Shown: positions 1 to 7,148 of the stretch, piece after piece
Layout: the number at the start of each line of letters is the position of its first letter
Position numbering within the stretch: position 1 is the stretch's first letter
DNA from: a virus
Length of the DNA: 24,327 nt
IMG/VR virus record: IMGVR_UViG_3300022912_000044
Coordinates: 1 to 24,327 of that record
Reading direction: 5' to 3' (one strand)
The notes under the pieces: model-generated
The model's database searches: none
What the model was told of the DNA's origin: nothing
Seen by the model: the letters and a program-made list of their open reading frames with translations, nothing else
Made by a program: the position numbers and the translations under genes

Positions 1-1075
1 TAGTTGGTTCAATATTACCTTGATAAGCTTTATACTTATAGTCTGTTGGTTCAATAACAGTTGCTTTGTTTTTCTTTAACCATTCCTGTTGTAGGTCTAC
101 AGCCTTAGAGGTCATTTGAGTCTTTTGTTTAGTTCTTCTAACTATTACCATTGAAAGTGATTCTTTAGGTGTTACCTTGGGCATAGATTCAGCTTTAAAC
201 ATAGGAACTTCTATCTTTTTAGGTTGAGGTACTACTTTAGGTTTACTCTTTACTGTTACTTTCTCTTTTATAGTCTTAACTACTAGTTTCTTCTTTGTAG
301 TAGTCTTCTTAGGTTTAGGTATTACTGCTCTATCTTCTTTAAGAGTATGACCTCTCTTCTTTGCTCCTAGTTTACCATTACAACTATATGAACAAGTAAC
401 TGTCTTTATATTGTGAGCAATAAAAGGAGTATTACACTGTACACATATCCTATCTATATTGATAGTTGGTCTAACTCTTTCTCTTTGTTTAATAGTATTA
501 ACTATCTTTCTACATTCATCTGAACAAGTCTTCTTTCTACCACCTTTAGGTATGTTAAACGTAACTGTACAATCTGGAGCTTCACAAGTTCTATCTTCTC
601 TCTTGTTTCCTGATCTAAGTCTATTTTTGTAATGAAACTTATCTCTACAACTCTTACTACAGAATTGTTTGGTTCTAACTTCAGGCATAAACACTTCTTT
701 ACATTCTAAACATCTCTTTTCTTTCTGTACTACTTTTTTCTTTTCATTGTTGAAAGATTGTTGACACTTTCTTGAACAGAATACTGTAGTTGAATTAACT
801 AATCCCATATCACCATTACAATGCTTACAAAACTTATGTTCTTTAGGTTTAGATTGAGTACATCTCTTAGAACAAAATCTAGTACCTAGCTTAGTATGAT
901 TGATGTCTGCATTACATACAATACATCTTCTATCTCCTAATCTTTTAAGTTCTTCTTGTCTTTTCTCTTCTCTTTTATACTTTTGATTGCATACAGAATT
1001 ACAGAAATGTTTAACTAAAGTCTTACCTCTAGTTTCTGTTACTGCTCCACATTGTTTACAGTTACCCTTTGCCAT
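1..1075 (-). CDS. Six-fold tandem Cys4 zinc-finger protein (3' end outside window)
   Basis: The frame is open for 358 codons from the ATG at 1073-1075 to the left edge, so the C-terminus is missing. The first ~235 residues hold six tandem Cys4 units: C6/C9-C25/C29, C51/C54-C68/C72, C83/C86-C100/C104, C122/C125-C139/C143, C164/C169-C184/C188 and C211/C214-C228/C232. The second Cys pair of most units reads FCSxxC followed by basic residues, as in small bacterial and phage zinc ribbons. Between and after the fingers the protein is rich in Lys and Arg. Residues ~240-305 form a Lys/Pro/Thr-rich linker, and a less basic segment follows up to the edge. AAGGA lies just upstream of the ATG, inside the end of the preceding gene. 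The family is not recognised. Nucleic-acid binding is inferred from charge and zinc ligands. It could equally be a protein-protein scaffold or an inhibitor of a host enzyme. The gene lies in a segment almost free of CpG. Confidence 0.85.
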   Translation of the reverse strand, partial: MAKGNCKQCGAVTETRGKTLVKHFCNSVCNQKYKREEKRQEELKRLGDRRCIVCNADINHTKLGTRFCSKRCTQSKPKEHKFCKHCNGDMGLVNSTTVFCSRKCQQSFNNEKKKVVQKEKRCLECKEVFMPEVRTKQFCSKSCRDKFHYKNRLRSGNKREDRTCEAPDCTVTFNIPKGGRKKTCSDECRKIVNTIKQRERVRPTINIDRICVQCNTPFIAHNIKTVTCSYSCNGKLGAKKRGHTLKEDRAVIPKPKKTTTKKKLVVKTIKEKVTVKSKPKVVPQPKKIEVPMFKAESMPKVTPKESLSMVIVRRTKQKTQMTSKAVDLQQEWLKKNKATVIEPTDYKYKAYQGNIEPT

Positions 1076-1078
1076 TAC

Positions 1079-1501
1079 TTATCCTTGATAATATTCTTTT
1101 CTGTTTATTCTGTCTAATTGATCCATGATATTATTAGTGGTTTTAAACTCACTACTAGTGCCTATATTCTTCTCTAAATCAAAGTATAGGGTATTAGCTA
1201 ACCTTAGACATTTCATCCCTGCTGAGCCTTTAAATACATCTTCTTCAGCTAAGTATAGACAAGATGATACACCTAATAATAAAGCATTACCATCTACATC
1301 TTCACCATTTGTTATTGTTTCTAGCTTATTATATGCAGATGTTACATATTCTACAGCTCCATTCTCAGTCTTAATTCCATGGTTCTTTTGAACCAGTTGT
1401 AATAATTCTTTAACTTCTGGATGTTTACCTTTAGCATCATCTAAAAATTGAGTTAAGAAACTCATTGCTAAAGCACTATATTCTTTATGATATTCTTTCA
1501 T
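1079..1501 (-). CDS. Hypothetical protein, 140 aa
   Basis: This ORF starts at the ATG at 1499-1501, with GAAGGA about 7 bases upstream inside the end of the preceding 46-aa ORF. It ends 3 bases before the zinc-finger gene, so the two are probably cotranslated. The protein looks soluble and mostly helical, with a hydrophobic stretch near residues 70-85 (NALLLGVSSCLYLAEED) that is too short and polar to be a convincing membrane segment. No catalytic motif or known family is recognised. Arginine is encoded only by AGA/AGG-type codons and the whole gene contains no CpG, like its two neighbours. The opposite-strand reading frame over the same bases has no ribosome binding site and is a shadow. Confidence 0.75.
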   Translation of the reverse strand: MKEYHKEYSALAMSFLTQFLDDAKGKHPEVKELLQLVQKNHGIKTENGAVEYVTSAYNKLETITNGEDVDGNALLLGVSSCLYLAEEDVFKGSAGMKCLRLANTLYFDLEKNIGTSSEFKTTNNIMDQLDRINRKEYYQG

Positions 1502-1505
1502 TTAC

Positions 1506-1646
1506 TTATCCTTCCACTTTACTTAATATTAATCTTATTAAACAATGTTCTCCATATGTCTTAGCATGATTATCATCTATATCTTTAAGTAACTTAATTA
1601 GTTTCTTTGGATCTATTAGCTGTTGTGGTTCTGTGTATATGTTCAT
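1506..1646 (-). CDS. Small hypothetical protein, 46 aa
   Basis: The reading frame runs from the ATG at 1644-1646 to the TAA at 1506-1508 and encodes a peptide beginning MNIYTEPQQLIDPKKLIKLL. AAAGGA lies 6 bases upstream of the ATG. The stop is only 4 bases before the ATG of the next gene, and the next gene's Shine-Dalgarno sits inside this ORF's last codons, which supports real translation. The peptide is charged and probably helical, without membrane segment or Cys motif. Function unknown. It belongs to the CpG-free segment. Confidence 0.6.
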   Translation of the reverse strand: MNIYTEPQQLIDPKKLIKLLKDIDDNHAKTYGEHCLIRLILSKVEG

Positions 1647-1679
1647 TTATAATCCTTTATAGTTCATATTCTTTACTAA

Positions 1680-1847
1680 TCATATTTGGTCCCCTAAGTC
1701 TATTTTATATCTGCACGCTTTTATTTTAGACTCCGCTTCAGCCAACTTTAGTTGAAGCCATTTATAATCAGCGTCCTCACCTTTTTGAAGTCTTTTAAAC
1801 ATCATCCAGTCTTCTCTTGCTATTTTTAATTCTTCTTCAAATGACAT
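1680..1847 (-). CDS. Small hypothetical protein, 55 aa, helical
   Basis: The frame starts with ATG at 1845-1847, one base after the stop of the HTH gene (TAAtATG), and ends with TGA at 1680-1682. The peptide starts MSFEEELKIAREDWMMFKRL and is strongly charged and probably a two-helix hairpin. The upstream Shine-Dalgarno is weak, so translation probably relies on coupling to the HTH gene. The gene contains ordinary CpG dinucleotides in its first half, and the CpG-poor region begins within it, at about 1716. Function unknown. Confidence 0.55.
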   Translation of the reverse strand: MSFEEELKIAREDWMMFKRLQKGEDADYKWLQLKLAEAESKIKACRYKIDLGDQI

Positions 1848-2143: not shown

Positions 2144-2428
2144 TTAAATCTTATCGATTAAGTCTAAAACATCTTCAATTTGCTCGTTTGACCAAGCCAC
2201 ACAGCTAAAACCAGAGGCGGCCTGTATCTTTTGTAAATTCAAATCCTGTAGCTTAGTAGTATTTTTTTTCTTTTCCGGCACTTTAACTTCTACACCTACA
2301 AAAACACCTTTATAGCAAACAAGCAAGTCAGGCACACCTTTTTTAGTGGCTGCTACTACTTTGACAACATAGGCACCTTGTTTTTCCAGGTACTTAACTA
2401 TCTTAGATTGTATCTGTTGTTCTTTCAT
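2144..2428 (-). CDS. VRR-NUC family nuclease
   Basis: This 94-aa protein matches the minimal phage VRR-NUC fold, a PD-(D/E)xK nuclease related to Holliday junction resolvases. The core is visible as GVPD34LL followed by GVE47VK49, the metal-binding and catalytic residues. A KLQ..NLQ segment and the closing 'VAWSNEQIEDVL' helix are also typical. Its ATG overlaps the stop of the SF2 helicase (ATGA), so the two are translationally coupled and probably act together. Known homologues cut branched or flap DNA. Here it most likely serves replication or recombination intermediates. Substrate specificity cannot be read from the sequence. Confidence 0.85.
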   Translation of the reverse strand: MKEQQIQSKIVKYLEKQGAYVVKVVAATKKGVPDLLVCYKGVFVGVEVKVPEKKKNTTKLQDLNLQKIQAASGFSCVAWSNEQIEDVLDLIDKI

Positions 2429-3609
2429 ATTAAACCTTTTTCGTAATAACTATTAACAAAATTCTTTTTGTTAATTGCAACGGTTGTATATACTTGATGA
2501 GATATACCTTCTTTAACTAATAAATAGTGTACGTTAATAGGTTCGTCTCTTTTCATATTACATTGTCTAGCTCTTCTTTGAGAGTATCGGGCCGTACTAA
2601 AATCCATAGAGTAAATAACTAAAGTTTTATACATGGAAAGATCTACTCCCTCCGCGAACGACGTAGCTTGTAGTATTCTAGCTTCAGCAAAAGACTCTTT
2701 AAGTAGCGCCTCCTCGTTTTTGTAATGGTAAAAGATAACAACCGAAGCCTCGTCCCCGAAGTGTTGCTTGATGTACTGCACTTTCTCTCTATTTCGTAGC
2801 CGAATATTAGAGTCTTCATTTTTTAATGTCCCCCCTTCTATTTGATGTAAGCCAACTAATTTTTTCATAGGTGTATCAGCTGCGTATTCAAACTCTGTTA
2901 TGTAGTCTTCTTTCTCTAGCTCCCGGTATAAATCCCTTGTCTCCTCGTTAAGATCAACCCAATGTAGTATATCGTTAGGTTCATAGGTAAAACCTAGTTC
3001 TTTCCTTGTATAACTCAGGAATAAATGGGCTATAGCGTCCCAAATAAGATCCTTTTTTACTTTATCGTACTTTTTGATCTGTCTTCCGCCTAACCACATC
3101 ATATCTGGAATACCGTAATGCTCGAACCACCTGTAAAAACTACTGTATTTATTAAACGGTGAGTACTGTGTCATCGATAATTGATGAAACAACTGAGCGT
3201 AAGTTTGAGCGGAGGGCGTAGCCGATAAGAATATAACAGGTAATTTATGCGTAATACTTTTAACCATTTTAGCTACTTTACCTAATTTAGGGTAAGCGCT
3301 TAGGTTTGCGTGAGCTTCATCTATAATAACCAAGTCAAAATCTTTTTTAGTTAATTTATGAAGGGATTCGTAATTAACTGCTGTGTAAGATTTAGTTATG
3401 CTGTATGCGCTCATTGTATCATCCCAGCCCTCCAAAGCTTTCTTTTTAGTAATAATCAGAATATTTTGAGCTTTGGTCATTTCACACACAAGTATAGATG
3501 TTAATGTTTTACCTGTTCTCTCTTCCATAGATAAATAAACAAGCCCATGAGATTTTAAAATCTCACAGGCTTTGTTGCTTATCTCTTCTTGGTGTTTATA
3601 GGGTTTCAC
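2425..3609 (-). CDS. SF2 DEAD/SNF2-like DNA helicase
   Basis: This 394-aa protein has the two RecA lobes of superfamily 2. Visible motifs are a Walker A variant EERTGKT at 29-35, the DEAH box at 97-100, motif III LSATP at 128-132, and motif VI QRRARQ at 344-349 with its arginine finger. The organisation resembles phage SNF2-like helicases often found beside a VRR-NUC gene. The start is a GTG at 3607-3609 within TAGTG, overlapping the stop of folE; the codon is not ATG. The stop overlaps the VRR-NUC ATG. The likely role is ATP-driven remodelling or branch migration of DNA with the nuclease. No target-recognition domain of a restriction system is visible. Confidence 0.88.
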   Translation of the reverse strand: MKPYKHQEEISNKACEILKSHGLVYLSMEERTGKTLTSILVCEMTKAQNILIITKKKALEGWDDTMSAYSITKSYTAVNYESLHKLTKKDFDLVIIDEAHANLSAYPKLGKVAKMVKSITHKLPVIFLSATPSAQTYAQLFHQLSMTQYSPFNKYSSFYRWFEHYGIPDMMWLGGRQIKKYDKVKKDLIWDAIAHLFLSYTRKELGFTYEPNDILHWVDLNEETRDLYRELEKEDYITEFEYAADTPMKKLVGLHQIEGGTLKNEDSNIRLRNREKVQYIKQHFGDEASVVIFYHYKNEEALLKESFAEARILQATSFAEGVDLSMYKTLVIYSMDFSTARYSQRRARQCNMKRDEPINVHYLLVKEGISHQVYTTVAINKKNFVNSYYEKGLI

Positions 3610-4184
3610 TATCGAATTAACCGCATAAATTCGCTTCTTACAGCTTGTTTATCTTTGAATACACCCTTCAGAGAGCTTGTAATAGTTTCGGAGTCTTGTT
3701 CTTGAACGCCCCTACTTGACATACATAAGTGCTCAGCTTCTATTACAACAGCTACACCTAAAGGTTCTAACTCTGCCATTAAAGCATTTGCAATATCTGT
3801 AGTTAATCTTTCTTGTACTTGTAGTCTTCTTGCGAATACGTTGGCTAGCCGGGCTAATTTAGATAAGCCGATTATTTTACCGTTAGGAATGTAAGCAATA
3901 TGAGCTTTACCTATAATCGGGGCTATATGGTGCTCACAGTGGGAATAGATTTTAATATCTTTTACAATAACCATTTCATCGTAATCTTCTCCCCCGTCTT
4001 CAAATACTTTCATAACAGCAGACGCTTCTTGAGAATGACCAACACCCCAATAATTCTTCCAAGCTTTTAAGAATCTCATTGGTGTCTCCTGGAGCCCTTC
4101 TCTCTCCGGGTCATCGCCTATAAATTCAATTATTGTTTTAACCGCGTCTATATATTTCCTATCAAATTCTTCTACTTTTTTCAT
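3609..4184 (-). CDS. folE: GTP cyclohydrolase I (FolE)
   Basis: The 191-aa product converts GTP to 7,8-dihydroneopterin triphosphate, the first step of both folate and 7-deazaguanine synthesis. It has the N-terminal [12 protein letters not shown] signature (~24-35), zinc-binding SHCEHH (81-86; C83 and H86), GLSKLAR (106-112), QERLT (124-128) and [11 protein letters not shown] (149-159) with the third zinc ligand C154. Length and motifs are those of a complete type I enzyme. It sits with queC, dpdA, queE and queD, so its product very probably feeds preQ0 for DNA. Its ATG overlaps the stop of the MazG-like gene (TAATG). Confidence 0.96.
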
Positions 4185-4426
4185 TATTTTACCTTTTCTA
4201 TTAAAAATGCTAAGTAATTAGCTACATCAGCAGCCTCACTTATTATATGTTCTGTGTCGTTACCCGCTTCAACGGCGTCTTCCAACTCCACGACTTCTCT
4301 TTTTAGTTCTACTAGTAAAGTATCTACGCTTTTATGCTCCCAAGATCCTTTATTTCTGTGTCTCATTAGCTTGAACTGCATAGCCACACCTAAGTCAGCT
4401 ATGATAGCTTTTTCTCTACGCTTCAT
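4184..4426 (-). CDS. MazG-like nucleotide pyrophosphohydrolase
   Basis: This 80-aa protein carries the all-alpha NTP-PPase pattern: an EVVELE helix (44-49) and EAADVANY (64-71), matching the E..E and E..D metal-binding motifs of MazG-type enzymes. Such proteins hydrolyse (d)NTPs, or in some phages are proposed to lower alarmone signalling. It overlaps queC by 11 bases and folE by one base, so it is part of the modification operon. It might limit unwanted nucleotides during base replacement or the host stringent response. The substrate is unknown. The opposite-strand frame at 4254-4439 is a shadow. Confidence 0.75.
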
Positions 4427-5045
4427 CCCTAAGTCCTAAGGCCCAATCTCTTTCTCTACAAGTGGAACACTCACCACACTGAACTTCTCCGCCTTCATAA
4501 CAAGAGTATGTAAAGTCTGGGTCCATACCAGCTTTGATACCTTCTTGAGCAAGTTCTTTTTTATCTAATTGTTCAAAAGGGGCTACTAACGCTACTTGAT
4601 TATAAGTACCGAACTTCATTGCATCAGCTTGAGCTTTATTAAACTCGGGCCTGCAATCTGGATAAACAGCGTTGTCTCCTTTATGAGAAGCAAGCATAAC
4701 ACAGTTTAATTCATTACTCTCAGCTATACCCGTTAAAATACTAAGCATAATGCCGTTTCTAAAGGGTACAACTGTAGATTTCATTGTTTCATCTTCATAA
4801 TGACCGTGGGGTATATCCCCGTCACCTAGTAAAGAGGATGTCATATCTTTAAACACTTCCCTAGCATCAATTACTTTATGAGCTATGCCTAACTTATCAC
4901 AGTTATATTTAGCCATTTTAATTTCTTGTTCGTTGTGGTTTGAACCATAGTTAAAACTCACGGCCATTGCTATCCTATCTTTATTTACGTATAAAGCAGA
5001 AGTAGAATCTAACCCTCCGCTGTACGAAAGTAGTGTGTCTTTCAT
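4416..5045 (-). CDS. queC: 7-cyano-7-deazaguanine (preQ0) synthase QueC
   Basis: QueC uses ATP and ammonia to turn 7-carboxy-7-deazaguanine into preQ0. The 209-aa product has the PP-loop SGGLDST at 9-15, VVPFRNG at 91-97, YPDCRPEF at 127-134, and a C-terminal zinc site formed by C181, C189, C192 and C195 in SCYEGGEVQCGECSTC. There is no N-terminal glutamine amidotransferase domain as in Gat-QueC, so the product should stop at the nitrile base. The ATG overlaps the dpdA stop as ATGA. Confidence 0.96.
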   Translation of the reverse strand: MKDTLLSYSGGLDSTSALYVNKDRIAMAVSFNYGSNHNEQEIKMAKYNCDKLGIAHKVIDAREVFKDMTSSLLGDGDIPHGHYEDETMKSTVVPFRNGIMLSILTGIAESNELNCVMLASHKGDNAVYPDCRPEFNKAQADAMKFGTYNQVALVAPFEQLDKKELAQEGIKAGMDPDFTYSCYEGGEVQCGECSTCRERDWALGLRDEA

Positions 5046-5725
5046 TTTGTTAGTTCCTTTATAAAATTAATGTTGTCCGTACATAAGTTATTCCAAGCCA
5101 ACTCTGTATCAAAATCTACTGCTAAAGGGTTTTTAGTTGTCTGAGTTCTCAAGTCAACATTATTAAGTCCCCCCCATACAGCAGCGCTACTATCCCAAGA
5201 ACCGACCCATTGTTTACATAAAGCTATTTCATACATAGAATCTGTAGCTCCCAACATATGAATCTTTTTCGTATCCATACCCTCTTCGAAATAAGCTCTT
5301 AGAAAGTTGTATCTAGATGCAGGGTTGTTCTTATCGCTACCTATTAGTTGTTCAACGTGGAAGAAACTTAAACCTACTTTGTCTATCTCATCAGAGTACA
5401 TAGCGTCTTTAAATTCTTTCACCGTAGTAGGTATATACATCACTTCATAACCTTCTCTCTTATAAACACCAATACTGTCTGTTGTACCGTCAGACATAAT
5501 AACACAATCTGCTTTTACGGCTTTAGCTGCTTTAAGCATTGTTGCTTCACACAAACAATATCTTAGCTCATAGAATGAGTTATCTAAGAAAGTGTATTTA
5601 TCAGATGAAGCGAAAGAATTTGCGTATCTTTCGTCTTCACATAAATGAGCCAAAGCCATATTAACATCAGAATGTTCAATAGCTTTGTTAGTGTACTTAG
5701 TAGGAGCTATAAAAGCTAGTTCCAT
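5042..5725 (-). CDS. dpdA: DpdA-like DNA 7-deazaguanine transglycosylase
   Basis: The protein resembles short phage DpdA enzymes, DNA-acting relatives of tRNA-guanine transglycosylase that swap guanine for a 7-deazaguanine. Visible elements are MELAFIAPT at the N-terminus, YTFLDNSFYEL (44-54), ADCVIMSDG (72-80), KVGLSF (116-121), KIHMLGAT (154-161) and GSWDSSAAVWGG (175-186). D178 is the likely nucleophile and D48 a possible second acid, by analogy with TGT. I chose the ATG at 5723-5725 (TAATG overlap with queE, 227 aa). An in-frame ATG 15 bases upstream would add five residues, MGCKI. No zinc site of bacterial TGT is present, as expected for phage DpdA. Context of four preQ0 synthesis genes strongly supports the call. 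Confidence 0.85.
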   Translation of the reverse strand: MELAFIAPTKYTNKAIEHSDVNMALAHLCEDERYANSFASSDKYTFLDNSFYELRYCLCEATMLKAAKAVKADCVIMSDGTTDSIGVYKREGYEVMYIPTTVKEFKDAMYSDEIDKVGLSFFHVEQLIGSDKNNPASRYNFLRAYFEEGMDTKKIHMLGATDSMYEIALCKQWVGSWDSSAAVWGGLNNVDLRTQTTKNPLAVDFDTELAWNNLCTDNINFIKELTK

Positions 5726-6303
5726 TATCTTACACCCCAAACTTTGTGAGCTTGGATATTTAATTTTGCAGGGTTTAGTAATTTAATAGCTACATCTGTA
5801 TTAGCTAAGTTTAAACTCTTTTCGTTATTAATAGGTGTTAACCAAACATTATCATACCTAGCTGTGTAATAGCCGATATACGCTTCTTCAGTAGTCTCGT
5901 CTACAGGTATTTTAATTTCGTTTATTCTATCGTTATCAATTAAGTCGCCAAACTTAGGCGATACAGTAATCCAATCAGCGGCTTGAACATTGTACAGTTT
6001 ATTACCGTTGGTTTCTACCTGAACATAAGCCCCCATACCTTTTAAAGCTCCGATTAAAGAGTTTAGGTTTTGAAGTGTGGGTTCTCCGCCTGTTATAACA
6101 ACGTGAGATACGCCGGACTCTGCATATAGTTTAACCAGATCTTCTATACTATACTCTGTTATATTTTTAGGTTCACTATGTAATGACTCATCACAGAAGT
6201 CGCAAGTGTAGTTGCAACCGAAGAATCTAACGAATAAAGATAATTTACCTAAGTGAGCAGCTTCCCCTTGAGGAGCTACGAAAGTTTCTACTAATTTATA
6301 CAT
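5725..6303 (-). CDS. queE: 7-carboxy-7-deazaguanine synthase QueE (radical SAM)
   Basis: QueE is a radical SAM enzyme that contracts 6-carboxytetrahydropterin to 7-carboxy-7-deazaguanine. The 192-aa product has the [4Fe-4S] motif C30-x3-C34-x2-C37 in GCNYTCDFC and the SAM-binding TGGEPT at 71-76. An APQGE motif near the N-terminus (10-14) is typical of QueE. The length is near the shorter members of the family, and nothing essential seems lost. The ATG overlaps the end of queD by 8 bases, with GAAGAAG upstream. Confidence 0.95.
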   Translation of the reverse strand: MYKLVETFVAPQGEAAHLGKLSLFVRFFGCNYTCDFCDESLHSEPKNITEYSIEDLVKLYAESGVSHVVITGGEPTLQNLNSLIGALKGMGAYVQVETNGNKLYNVQAADWITVSPKFGDLIDNDRINEIKIPVDETTEEAYIGYYTARYDNVWLTPINNEKSLNLANTDVAIKLLNPAKLNIQAHKVWGVR

Positions 6304-6763
6304 CTGAAGCTTCTTCGATATTTATATAGTGCGCTGTCATTTCTTGGTTTCCTCTGCCTTTAGCATAAGCCCAGCCTGTTAATGTTTCCTGCACTCTTAC
6401 TACTTCAACAGGAAAACCTCTATCTTCTAGCACTTGATACATATGATAAGCCATTTGCTCAGCTGTTGGGTTGTAATCAACAGTGATAAACCTAGCGTTT
6501 ATTTCTTTACATATTTCTTTCATTCTATCGTGTGTAGGGTCTTGATCCCACAACATTAGACTATGGTCCCAAGCATCAATCATCCAACTAAACCTATCTT
6601 TTAACTCACCGAAATCCATCAACATACCCGTATGGTCTAATTGATCTCCTTTTAGAGTAACCTCTGCTAAGTAACTATGGCCGTGAAAGCTTTGACATTT
6701 TTTACTGTAACTATCTACTAATCTGTGAGCAAGCTCGAATTTAAATTTTTTTGTTATTTCCAT
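6296..6763 (-). CDS. queD: 6-carboxy-5,6,7,8-tetrahydropterin synthase QueD
   Basis: QueD converts dihydroneopterin triphosphate from FolE to 6-carboxytetrahydropterin. Numbering from the chosen ATG (6761-6763, 155 aa), the zinc ligands H13, H27 and H29 lie in FELAH and FHGHS, and the catalytic C23 lies in C-x3-HGH. LMDFGELK and WDHSLML follow as in the PTPS fold. This start has GGGAG 7 bases upstream and lies right after the stop of the phosphoribosyltransferase. A start 18 bases upstream would overlap that gene and lacks a better site. Confidence 0.95.
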   Translation of the reverse strand: MEITKKFKFELAHRLVDSYSKKCQSFHGHSYLAEVTLKGDQLDHTGMLMDFGELKDRFSWMIDAWDHSLMLWDQDPTHDRMKEICKEINARFITVDYNPTAEQMAYHMYQVLEDRGFPVEVVRVQETLTGWAYAKGRGNQEMTAHYINIEEASDV

Positions 6764-6764
6764 T

Positions 6765-7148
6765 TTATTTCTCCCAATCAAATGTGATCCAATTGTTGTG
6801 AGTTATAGGCTGCCCTACGTAATCACACCTAAACGACGTAGTAATTCTTTCATATAAAACAGCTGTTTTATATGGTATACTTATGTGTTTTACCATTTCC
6901 GTTAGCGTATCTCCCGTATCAGAGATGTCATCCACTATTAAAACCTTGTTACCTAAGCCGTTTGTTCTAAATGTCTCAGGAGGCACCGTATTTCCCGTCG
7001 GTAAGTGGTGCACGGTTTTAATACCTAGGGCGTGAGCTAAGTAAGCAGAAGGTACCAGACCCCCTCTACCGCAACACAAGATTGAAGTAAACTTTTCATC
7101 GCCTATTAAACTTAGAATCTCTTTTACAAGTCTTTTTTCCTCAACCAT
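6765..7148 (-). CDS. Gpt-like xanthine/guanine phosphoribosyltransferase
   Basis: This 127-aa type I phosphoribosyltransferase couples a purine base with PRPP. It shows the PRPP-binding loop VLIVDDISDTGDT at 69-81. The segment GRGGLVPSAYLAHALGI (27-43) and the C-terminal DYVGQPITHNNWITFDWE closely follow the layout of E. coli Gpt (RGGLVPGALLARELGI and the final DxWIxxxWD region), which acts on guanine and xanthine. It is one base from queD and overlaps DUF3310, so it is within the modification operon. It could salvage guanine to GMP and so feed GTP to FolE. Substrate choice is inferred from the Gpt-like motifs, not proven. Confidence 0.85.
   Translation of the reverse strand: MVEEKRLVKEILSLIGDEKFTSILCCGRGGLVPSAYLAHALGIKTVHHLPTGNTVPPETFRTNGLGNKVLIVDDISDTGDTLTEMVKHISIPYKTAVLYERITTSFRCDYVGQPITHNNWITFDWEK

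Follow-up and report, generated by a model that had tools for sequence, protein, structure and literature searches.

The window, that is, the whole 24,327-nt stretch of DNA analysed here (IMG/VR virus record IMGVR_UViG_3300022912_000044), begins with a minus-strand gene for a protein with six zinc-finger-like units, which starts at an ATG at position 1075 and encodes 358 amino acids inside the window. As had been noted in a sequence-only reading of this DNA, the gene has no stop in the window: the open reading frame runs off the edge, and its 3' end was recovered from near-identical viral contigs, in which the full-length gene encodes 387 aa (L002, positions 583-1746, and L003) or 385 aa (L004-L006). 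The start codon lies 3 nt past the stop codon of an upstream 140-aa gene without a known family match, and an AAGGA motif is located within the 3' end of that upstream gene. Given this spacing and the presence of the motif, the finger gene reads as a translated gene coupled to its neighbour. The features of the region are as follows:

1..1658, minus strand: exchanged cassette, 98-99.8% nucleotide identity to L002-L006
2..1075, minus strand: six-finger protein gene, from the ORF call and the Cys4 pattern, 358 of 387 aa in the window
989..1060, minus strand: finger 1 (aa 6-29), Cys4 pattern, CKQCGAVTETRGKTLVKHFCNSVC
860..925, minus strand: finger 2 (aa 51-72), Cys4 pattern, CIVCNADINHTKLGTRFCSKRC
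764..829, minus strand: finger 3 (aa 83-104), Cys4 pattern, within the best Pfam DUF2116 stretch (aa 79-118)
647..712, minus strand: finger 4 (aa 122-143), Cys4 pattern, with a sub-threshold zf-FCS match at aa 127-147
512..586, minus strand: finger 5 (aa 164-188), Cys4 pattern with the variant first pair CEAPDC
380..445, minus strand: finger 6 (aa 211-232), Cys4 pattern
2..355, minus strand: Lys/Pro-rich tail (aa 241-358 of 387), predicted disordered, no family match
1082..1086, minus strand: AAGGA Shine-Dalgarno-like motif of the finger gene, seen in the sequence
1079..1501, minus strand: 140-aa gene upstream of the finger gene, which it accompanies in related contigs with 99-100% conservation

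By pattern count, the six Cys4 units account for all 24 cysteines of the in-window protein. Among 20,000 composition shuffles of the same protein, three units occurred in a single shuffle and more than three in none, which rules out a chance cysteine pattern. Cysteine spacing is 2-13-3 in four of the six units, 2-15-3 in unit 1, and 4-14-3 in unit 5, and the units align mutually as CxxC-x13-15-CSxxC followed by a basic stretch. The linkers between fingers are 10-22 aa long, each with a net charge of +2 to +5, and the whole finger region has a net charge of about +35. The six regularly spaced Cys4 units with basic linkers described previously are thus borne out, while the CSxxC form of the second pair applies to units 2-6 but not to unit 1, which reads CNSVC.

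Putative family membership was assessed with profile and structure searches. Pfam DUF2116, a probable treble clef, matches the protein in three stretches (27.7 bits vs a cutoff of 26.8), while zf-FCS falls short of its cutoff (15.7 vs 22.4), and the four-cysteine motif along with the family profile places the protein in the zf-FCS/DUF2116 superfamily. The fingers are also matched by PHROG families 15471 and 1271 (HNH endonuclease) and 2308, at 8e-13 to 6e-12, and the first two (phrog_15471, 8e-13; phrog_1271, 3e-12) show that the finger array of phage HNH/homing endonucleases is present. The match to PHROG 1271 spans profile positions 114-246, ahead of the HNH part, whereas that of L012, another phage array protein, extends up to 323. 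The profile search proposed earlier therefore leads into a characterised family only in part, since HNH-endonuclease families match the finger block, yet the protein lacks their nuclease domain.

In a finger-pair alignment of 45 rows drawn from many contigs, the eight cysteine columns are invariant. An AlphaFold2 model of fingers 3-4 built from this alignment (mean pLDDT 84) shows a strand region and then a helix (25-35, 64-74) after each second cysteine pair. The nearest solved structures are YacG, the L3MBTL2 FCS finger, and ribosomal chains, with Z scores all below 3, including a weak superposition on the L3MBTL2 finger (2w0t; Z 2.6, 2.5 Å over 38 residues, 29% identity), and a Foldseek search of the PDB with the model gave no match at E<=0.001, as expected for units of about 35 residues. 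A single-sequence search of the PDB likewise gave no match, and profile matches to C2H2 proteins were set aside as reflecting cysteine composition. The full-length model is of low confidence (mean pLDDT 57, pTM 0.22), well-predicted stretches being limited to portions of the finger region; its 26 BFVD matches at E<=0.001 include many phage HNH proteins, among them one from phage Gaia, as well as zinc-finger proteins. Taken together, the profiles and the predicted fold suggest that the fingers are probably of zf-FCS/DUF2116 type and treble-clef-like. They share with the fingers of L3MBTL2, PHC1, ZMYM5, and eL24 the CxxC-x13-15-(F)CSxxC motif, a DUF2116 score above cutoff, and the strand-then-helix prediction, but differ in forming six tandem units in a phage and in remaining below the Pfam cutoff for zf-FCS. 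Fingers of the zf-FCS class bind RNA and DNA in Polyhomeotic/Rae28, form tandem clusters with as many as 10 members, and can also mediate protein-protein contacts (PMC4047054).

Beyond the fingers, the complete protein ends in a Lys/Pro-rich tail of 155 aa, modelled with pLDDT <50 from about residue 236 except for a short helix near aa 323-335. No nuclease was detected outside the fingers, either in Pfam and NCBIfam (358 in-window aa) or in PHROGs (complete protein, and tail alone), and the protein thus displays none of the nuclease domains of phage homing endonucleases (HNH, Vsr/DUF559, PD-(D/E)XK, GIY-YIG). A nuclease hidden in the tail was rejected, as the tail has no family match and finds relatives only within the same gene. 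A nuclease split into the next gene was rejected as well: in L002-L004, the gene directly downstream, about 70 nt on, encodes an N6/N4-type DNA methyltransferase. The next gene in L007 encodes a 229-aa protein without a Pfam match, and a methyltransferase lies further downstream.

We gathered other finger arrays by scanning viral contigs with artificial consensus arrays, from one bacterial-genome scan, and from phage-record loci. Merging near-identical copies by hand left 25 distinct proteins of three or more units, a query-biased sample that gives no frequency. These include arrays of nine (L079), seven (L049), and six units (L012, L017). Within this query-biased sample, a recognisable nuclease is found in 18 of the 25 proteins, covering HNH, DUF559, TnsA-like, resolvase-like, and phage-endonuclease-I-like domains. 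HNH was assigned by Pfam in L012, L013, L014, L018, L025, L026, L032 (second ORF), L056, L069, L078, L081, and L085, and in L034 by a PHROG alignment reaching into the HNH part; the others are DUF559 (L067), DUF1064/resolvase-like (L029), TnsA-like (L017), resolvase-like (L079), and a phage-endonuclease-I-like match in L077 that is below cutoff but counted among the 18. L053 appears Vsr-like by eye only, its Pfam match being DUF7487, and no domain was assigned to the C-terminal part of L099. Stand-alone arrays in which no nuclease was found make up three of the 25, namely the window family, L049, and L068. The expectation that phage proteins of this type usually carry one or two units does not hold, as arrays of three to nine are readily found, usually beside a nuclease domain, in this query-biased sample. 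Likewise, the six-unit array had been called unusual, which is true of its lack of a nuclease but not of its length, arrays of four to nine units being present in other phage proteins: long finger arrays are already known in phages, and the missing nuclease is the odd feature.

The closest parallels are the HNH endonucleases of PHROG 1271/15471, such as Mycobacterium phage Gaia gp136 with five fingers and an HNH, which have tandem Cys4 units of the same type and a profile match across the finger block, but carry an HNH where the window protein has its disordered Lys/Pro tail. L079, L049, and L068 (four fingers) present long arrays of the same module, the latter two also without a detectable nuclease; the C-terminus of L079 is resolvase-like, the C-terminal domain of L049 is unassigned, and by eye these tails are unrelated to that of the window protein. 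In isolated phages, relatives of the protein gave only sub-significant matches (E 0.08 and above, none at E<=0.01), and bacterial genomes gave no match for the protein itself and six weak array relatives with the consensus query. We found no published work on phage FCS arrays in the mainly open-access literature.

Fingers of the same type also occur in other contexts. L011 has two fingers under the search pattern and matches homing endonucleases of the F-LimIII type. In L021 (2386-4419), three such fingers lie in an ORF that also encodes a head maturation protease, and in the large ORF of L032/L071 three lie, by eye, inside a very long tail-type protein; the fingers in these long structural-type ORFs are perhaps inteins or inserted endonucleases. 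The L059 gene at 1207-1701 and similar Mycobacterium phage genes, annotated as WhiB, encode a WhiB domain and then two fingers of this type.

We next consider how the finger gene is maintained. Between L002 and L004, the finger region shows 12.5 synonymous vs 8.5 non-synonymous changes on 137 and 583 sites, respectively, i.e., a pN/pS of 0.16 (binomial p about 1e-4, with changes treated as independent), and the comparison of L002 with L003 gives 0.09 (p about 0.004, on the same treatment). Changes in the tail were too few to judge selection, and some shorter, tail-dominated pairwise comparisons gave higher pN/pS. Every near-full copy retains all 24 cysteines and an open frame. Judged from these sequence comparisons, the fingers are under purifying selection, and the gene is real, intact, and under selection.

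The surroundings of the gene are less stable. Identity between the window and L003/L004 is 98-99% over a common 1.66-kb block that includes the finger gene, the 140-aa gene, and a 46-aa gene, and drops sharply at about window 1660-1690, beyond which an HTH-type protein and a helicase display only 56% and 38% protein identity, respectively. On the opposite side, the finger gene is followed immediately by a different gene in L007 than in L002, in which the methyltransferase comes next. A block about 98% identical next to neighbours at 38-56% protein identity indicates a cassette recently exchanged between divergent phages. Several contigs end inside the block (the window, L007-L010, and L134), which may be an assembler effect of sequence common to co-occurring phages. 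In L009, about 0.9 kb of extra sequence with two ORFs of 195 and 112 aa (3641-4574) lies between the 46-aa and 140-aa genes and is absent from the other contigs compared. In L129 (1-330), a SecY-like host fragment runs into the terminal portion of the finger gene, the junction being a short motif common to both. This contig was rejected as a fingerless version of the gene, its first 165 bases reading by eye as a frameshifted SecY-like host gene; it is probably a chimeric contig end, and the fragment possibly a host clue. A search for the fragment in one Campylobacteraceae genome gave no match and was uninformative.

Overall, we lean towards the interpretation that the stand-alone six-finger array is the DNA grip of a homing-type nuclease, retained to bind nucleic acid without cutting it. 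The finger module is common to phage homing-type nucleases of HNH, Vsr/DUF559-like, and PD-(D/E)XK-like types, and nucleic-acid binding, as suggested by the sequence-only reading, is the best-supported role given the treble-clef-type fingers, the basic linkers, and the same modules in phage nucleases. An extended basic surface of the array would contact the nucleic acid, for which double-stranded DNA is the likeliest candidate. The protein would work through site occupancy instead of cutting, whether to repress, to occlude a site, or to recruit other factors, and its disordered basic tail would contribute non-specific affinity or contacts with partners. Descent would probably be from the portion of a free-standing endonuclease that recognises DNA, as judged from common modules and not from a tree. 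The phage homing enzyme I-TevI is both an endonuclease and a transcriptional autorepressor (PMC2988022).

Sequence alone does not separate DNA from RNA binding, and the profile and structure matches include eL24 chains as well as FCS fingers that bind RNA (Polyhomeotic-like PHC1). These matches and the basic linkers and tail would also fit an eL24-like or regulatory RNA-binding protein acting on phage or host RNA, yet most long-array phage relatives bear DNA nuclease domains, and we consider this alternative unlikely. Long arrays are usually fused to nucleases and the cassette sits in a block swapped between phages, as could be expected of a decaying homing-endonuclease remnant that lost its nuclease domain and whose finger array is drifting to extinction. 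Such decay is still less likely, given the excess of synonymous change in the finger region (pN/pS 0.09-0.16, p about 1e-4 and 4e-3), the 24 cysteines and open frame of every near-full copy, the ribosome-binding motif, and the coupling to the upstream gene.

Two further alternatives would instead make the protein a partner of other proteins, and both appear improbable. The sequence-only reading had also proposed a host partner, for which the analysis gave evidence neither way. Phage gyrase inhibitors exist (PMC10886550), and the weak structural and profile matches include the DNA gyrase inhibitor YacG, whose small Cys4 finger is similar, so that the protein could be a scaffold or host-takeover factor binding host proteins via its fingers, such as a YacG-like inhibitor. 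However, the protein has no YacG match in Pfam, and its single tryptophan, W332, lies far out in the tail and not beside any finger, whereas in YacG a key tryptophan inserts into GyrB (PMC10886550); neither the family profile nor the GyrB-inserting tryptophan of YacG is thus present, and one finger is enough for YacG, which leaves six unexplained. The protein could instead assist the neighbouring DNA methyltransferase, or another DNA-modification protein, by lending it specificity or recruiting it. This would be consistent with the methyltransferase gene directly next to the finger gene in L002-L004, with a methyltransferase further downstream in L007, and with a two-finger Streptococcus phage protein whose gene overlaps that of an adenine methyltransferase. 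Nevertheless, L002 and L007 differ in the downstream gene although both keep the finger gene, which argues against an obligate finger-methyltransferase pair.

In a natural nuclease-free array under selection, DNA recognition by fingers alone, the site length of six units, and a regulator role become directly testable. Phage nucleases with very different catalytic domains reuse tandem fingers of this class, and the family could give a compact modular DNA-binding scaffold should its fingers prove to read sequence. A broader and more tentative proposal is that DNA grips of homing nucleases have been domesticated as long-array DNA-binding proteins, serving as regulators, site protectors, or methyltransferase guides and cassette-borne between phages; if true, these would be a phage counterpart of eukaryotic multi-finger factors.

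Elsewhere in the window, a small Hjc-type resolvase-like gene (2144-2428, minus strand) adjoins a SNF2-like helicase gene (2425-3609). A 7-deazaguanine (preQ0) set at 3609-6781 (minus strand) comprises GTP cyclohydrolase I, QueC, a QueE-like radical-SAM protein, and a QueD/PTPS protein, which suggests that the phage modifies its DNA. A 232-aa ORF without a Pfam match (5042-5740) reads by eye like a putative phage DpdA-type transglycosylase.
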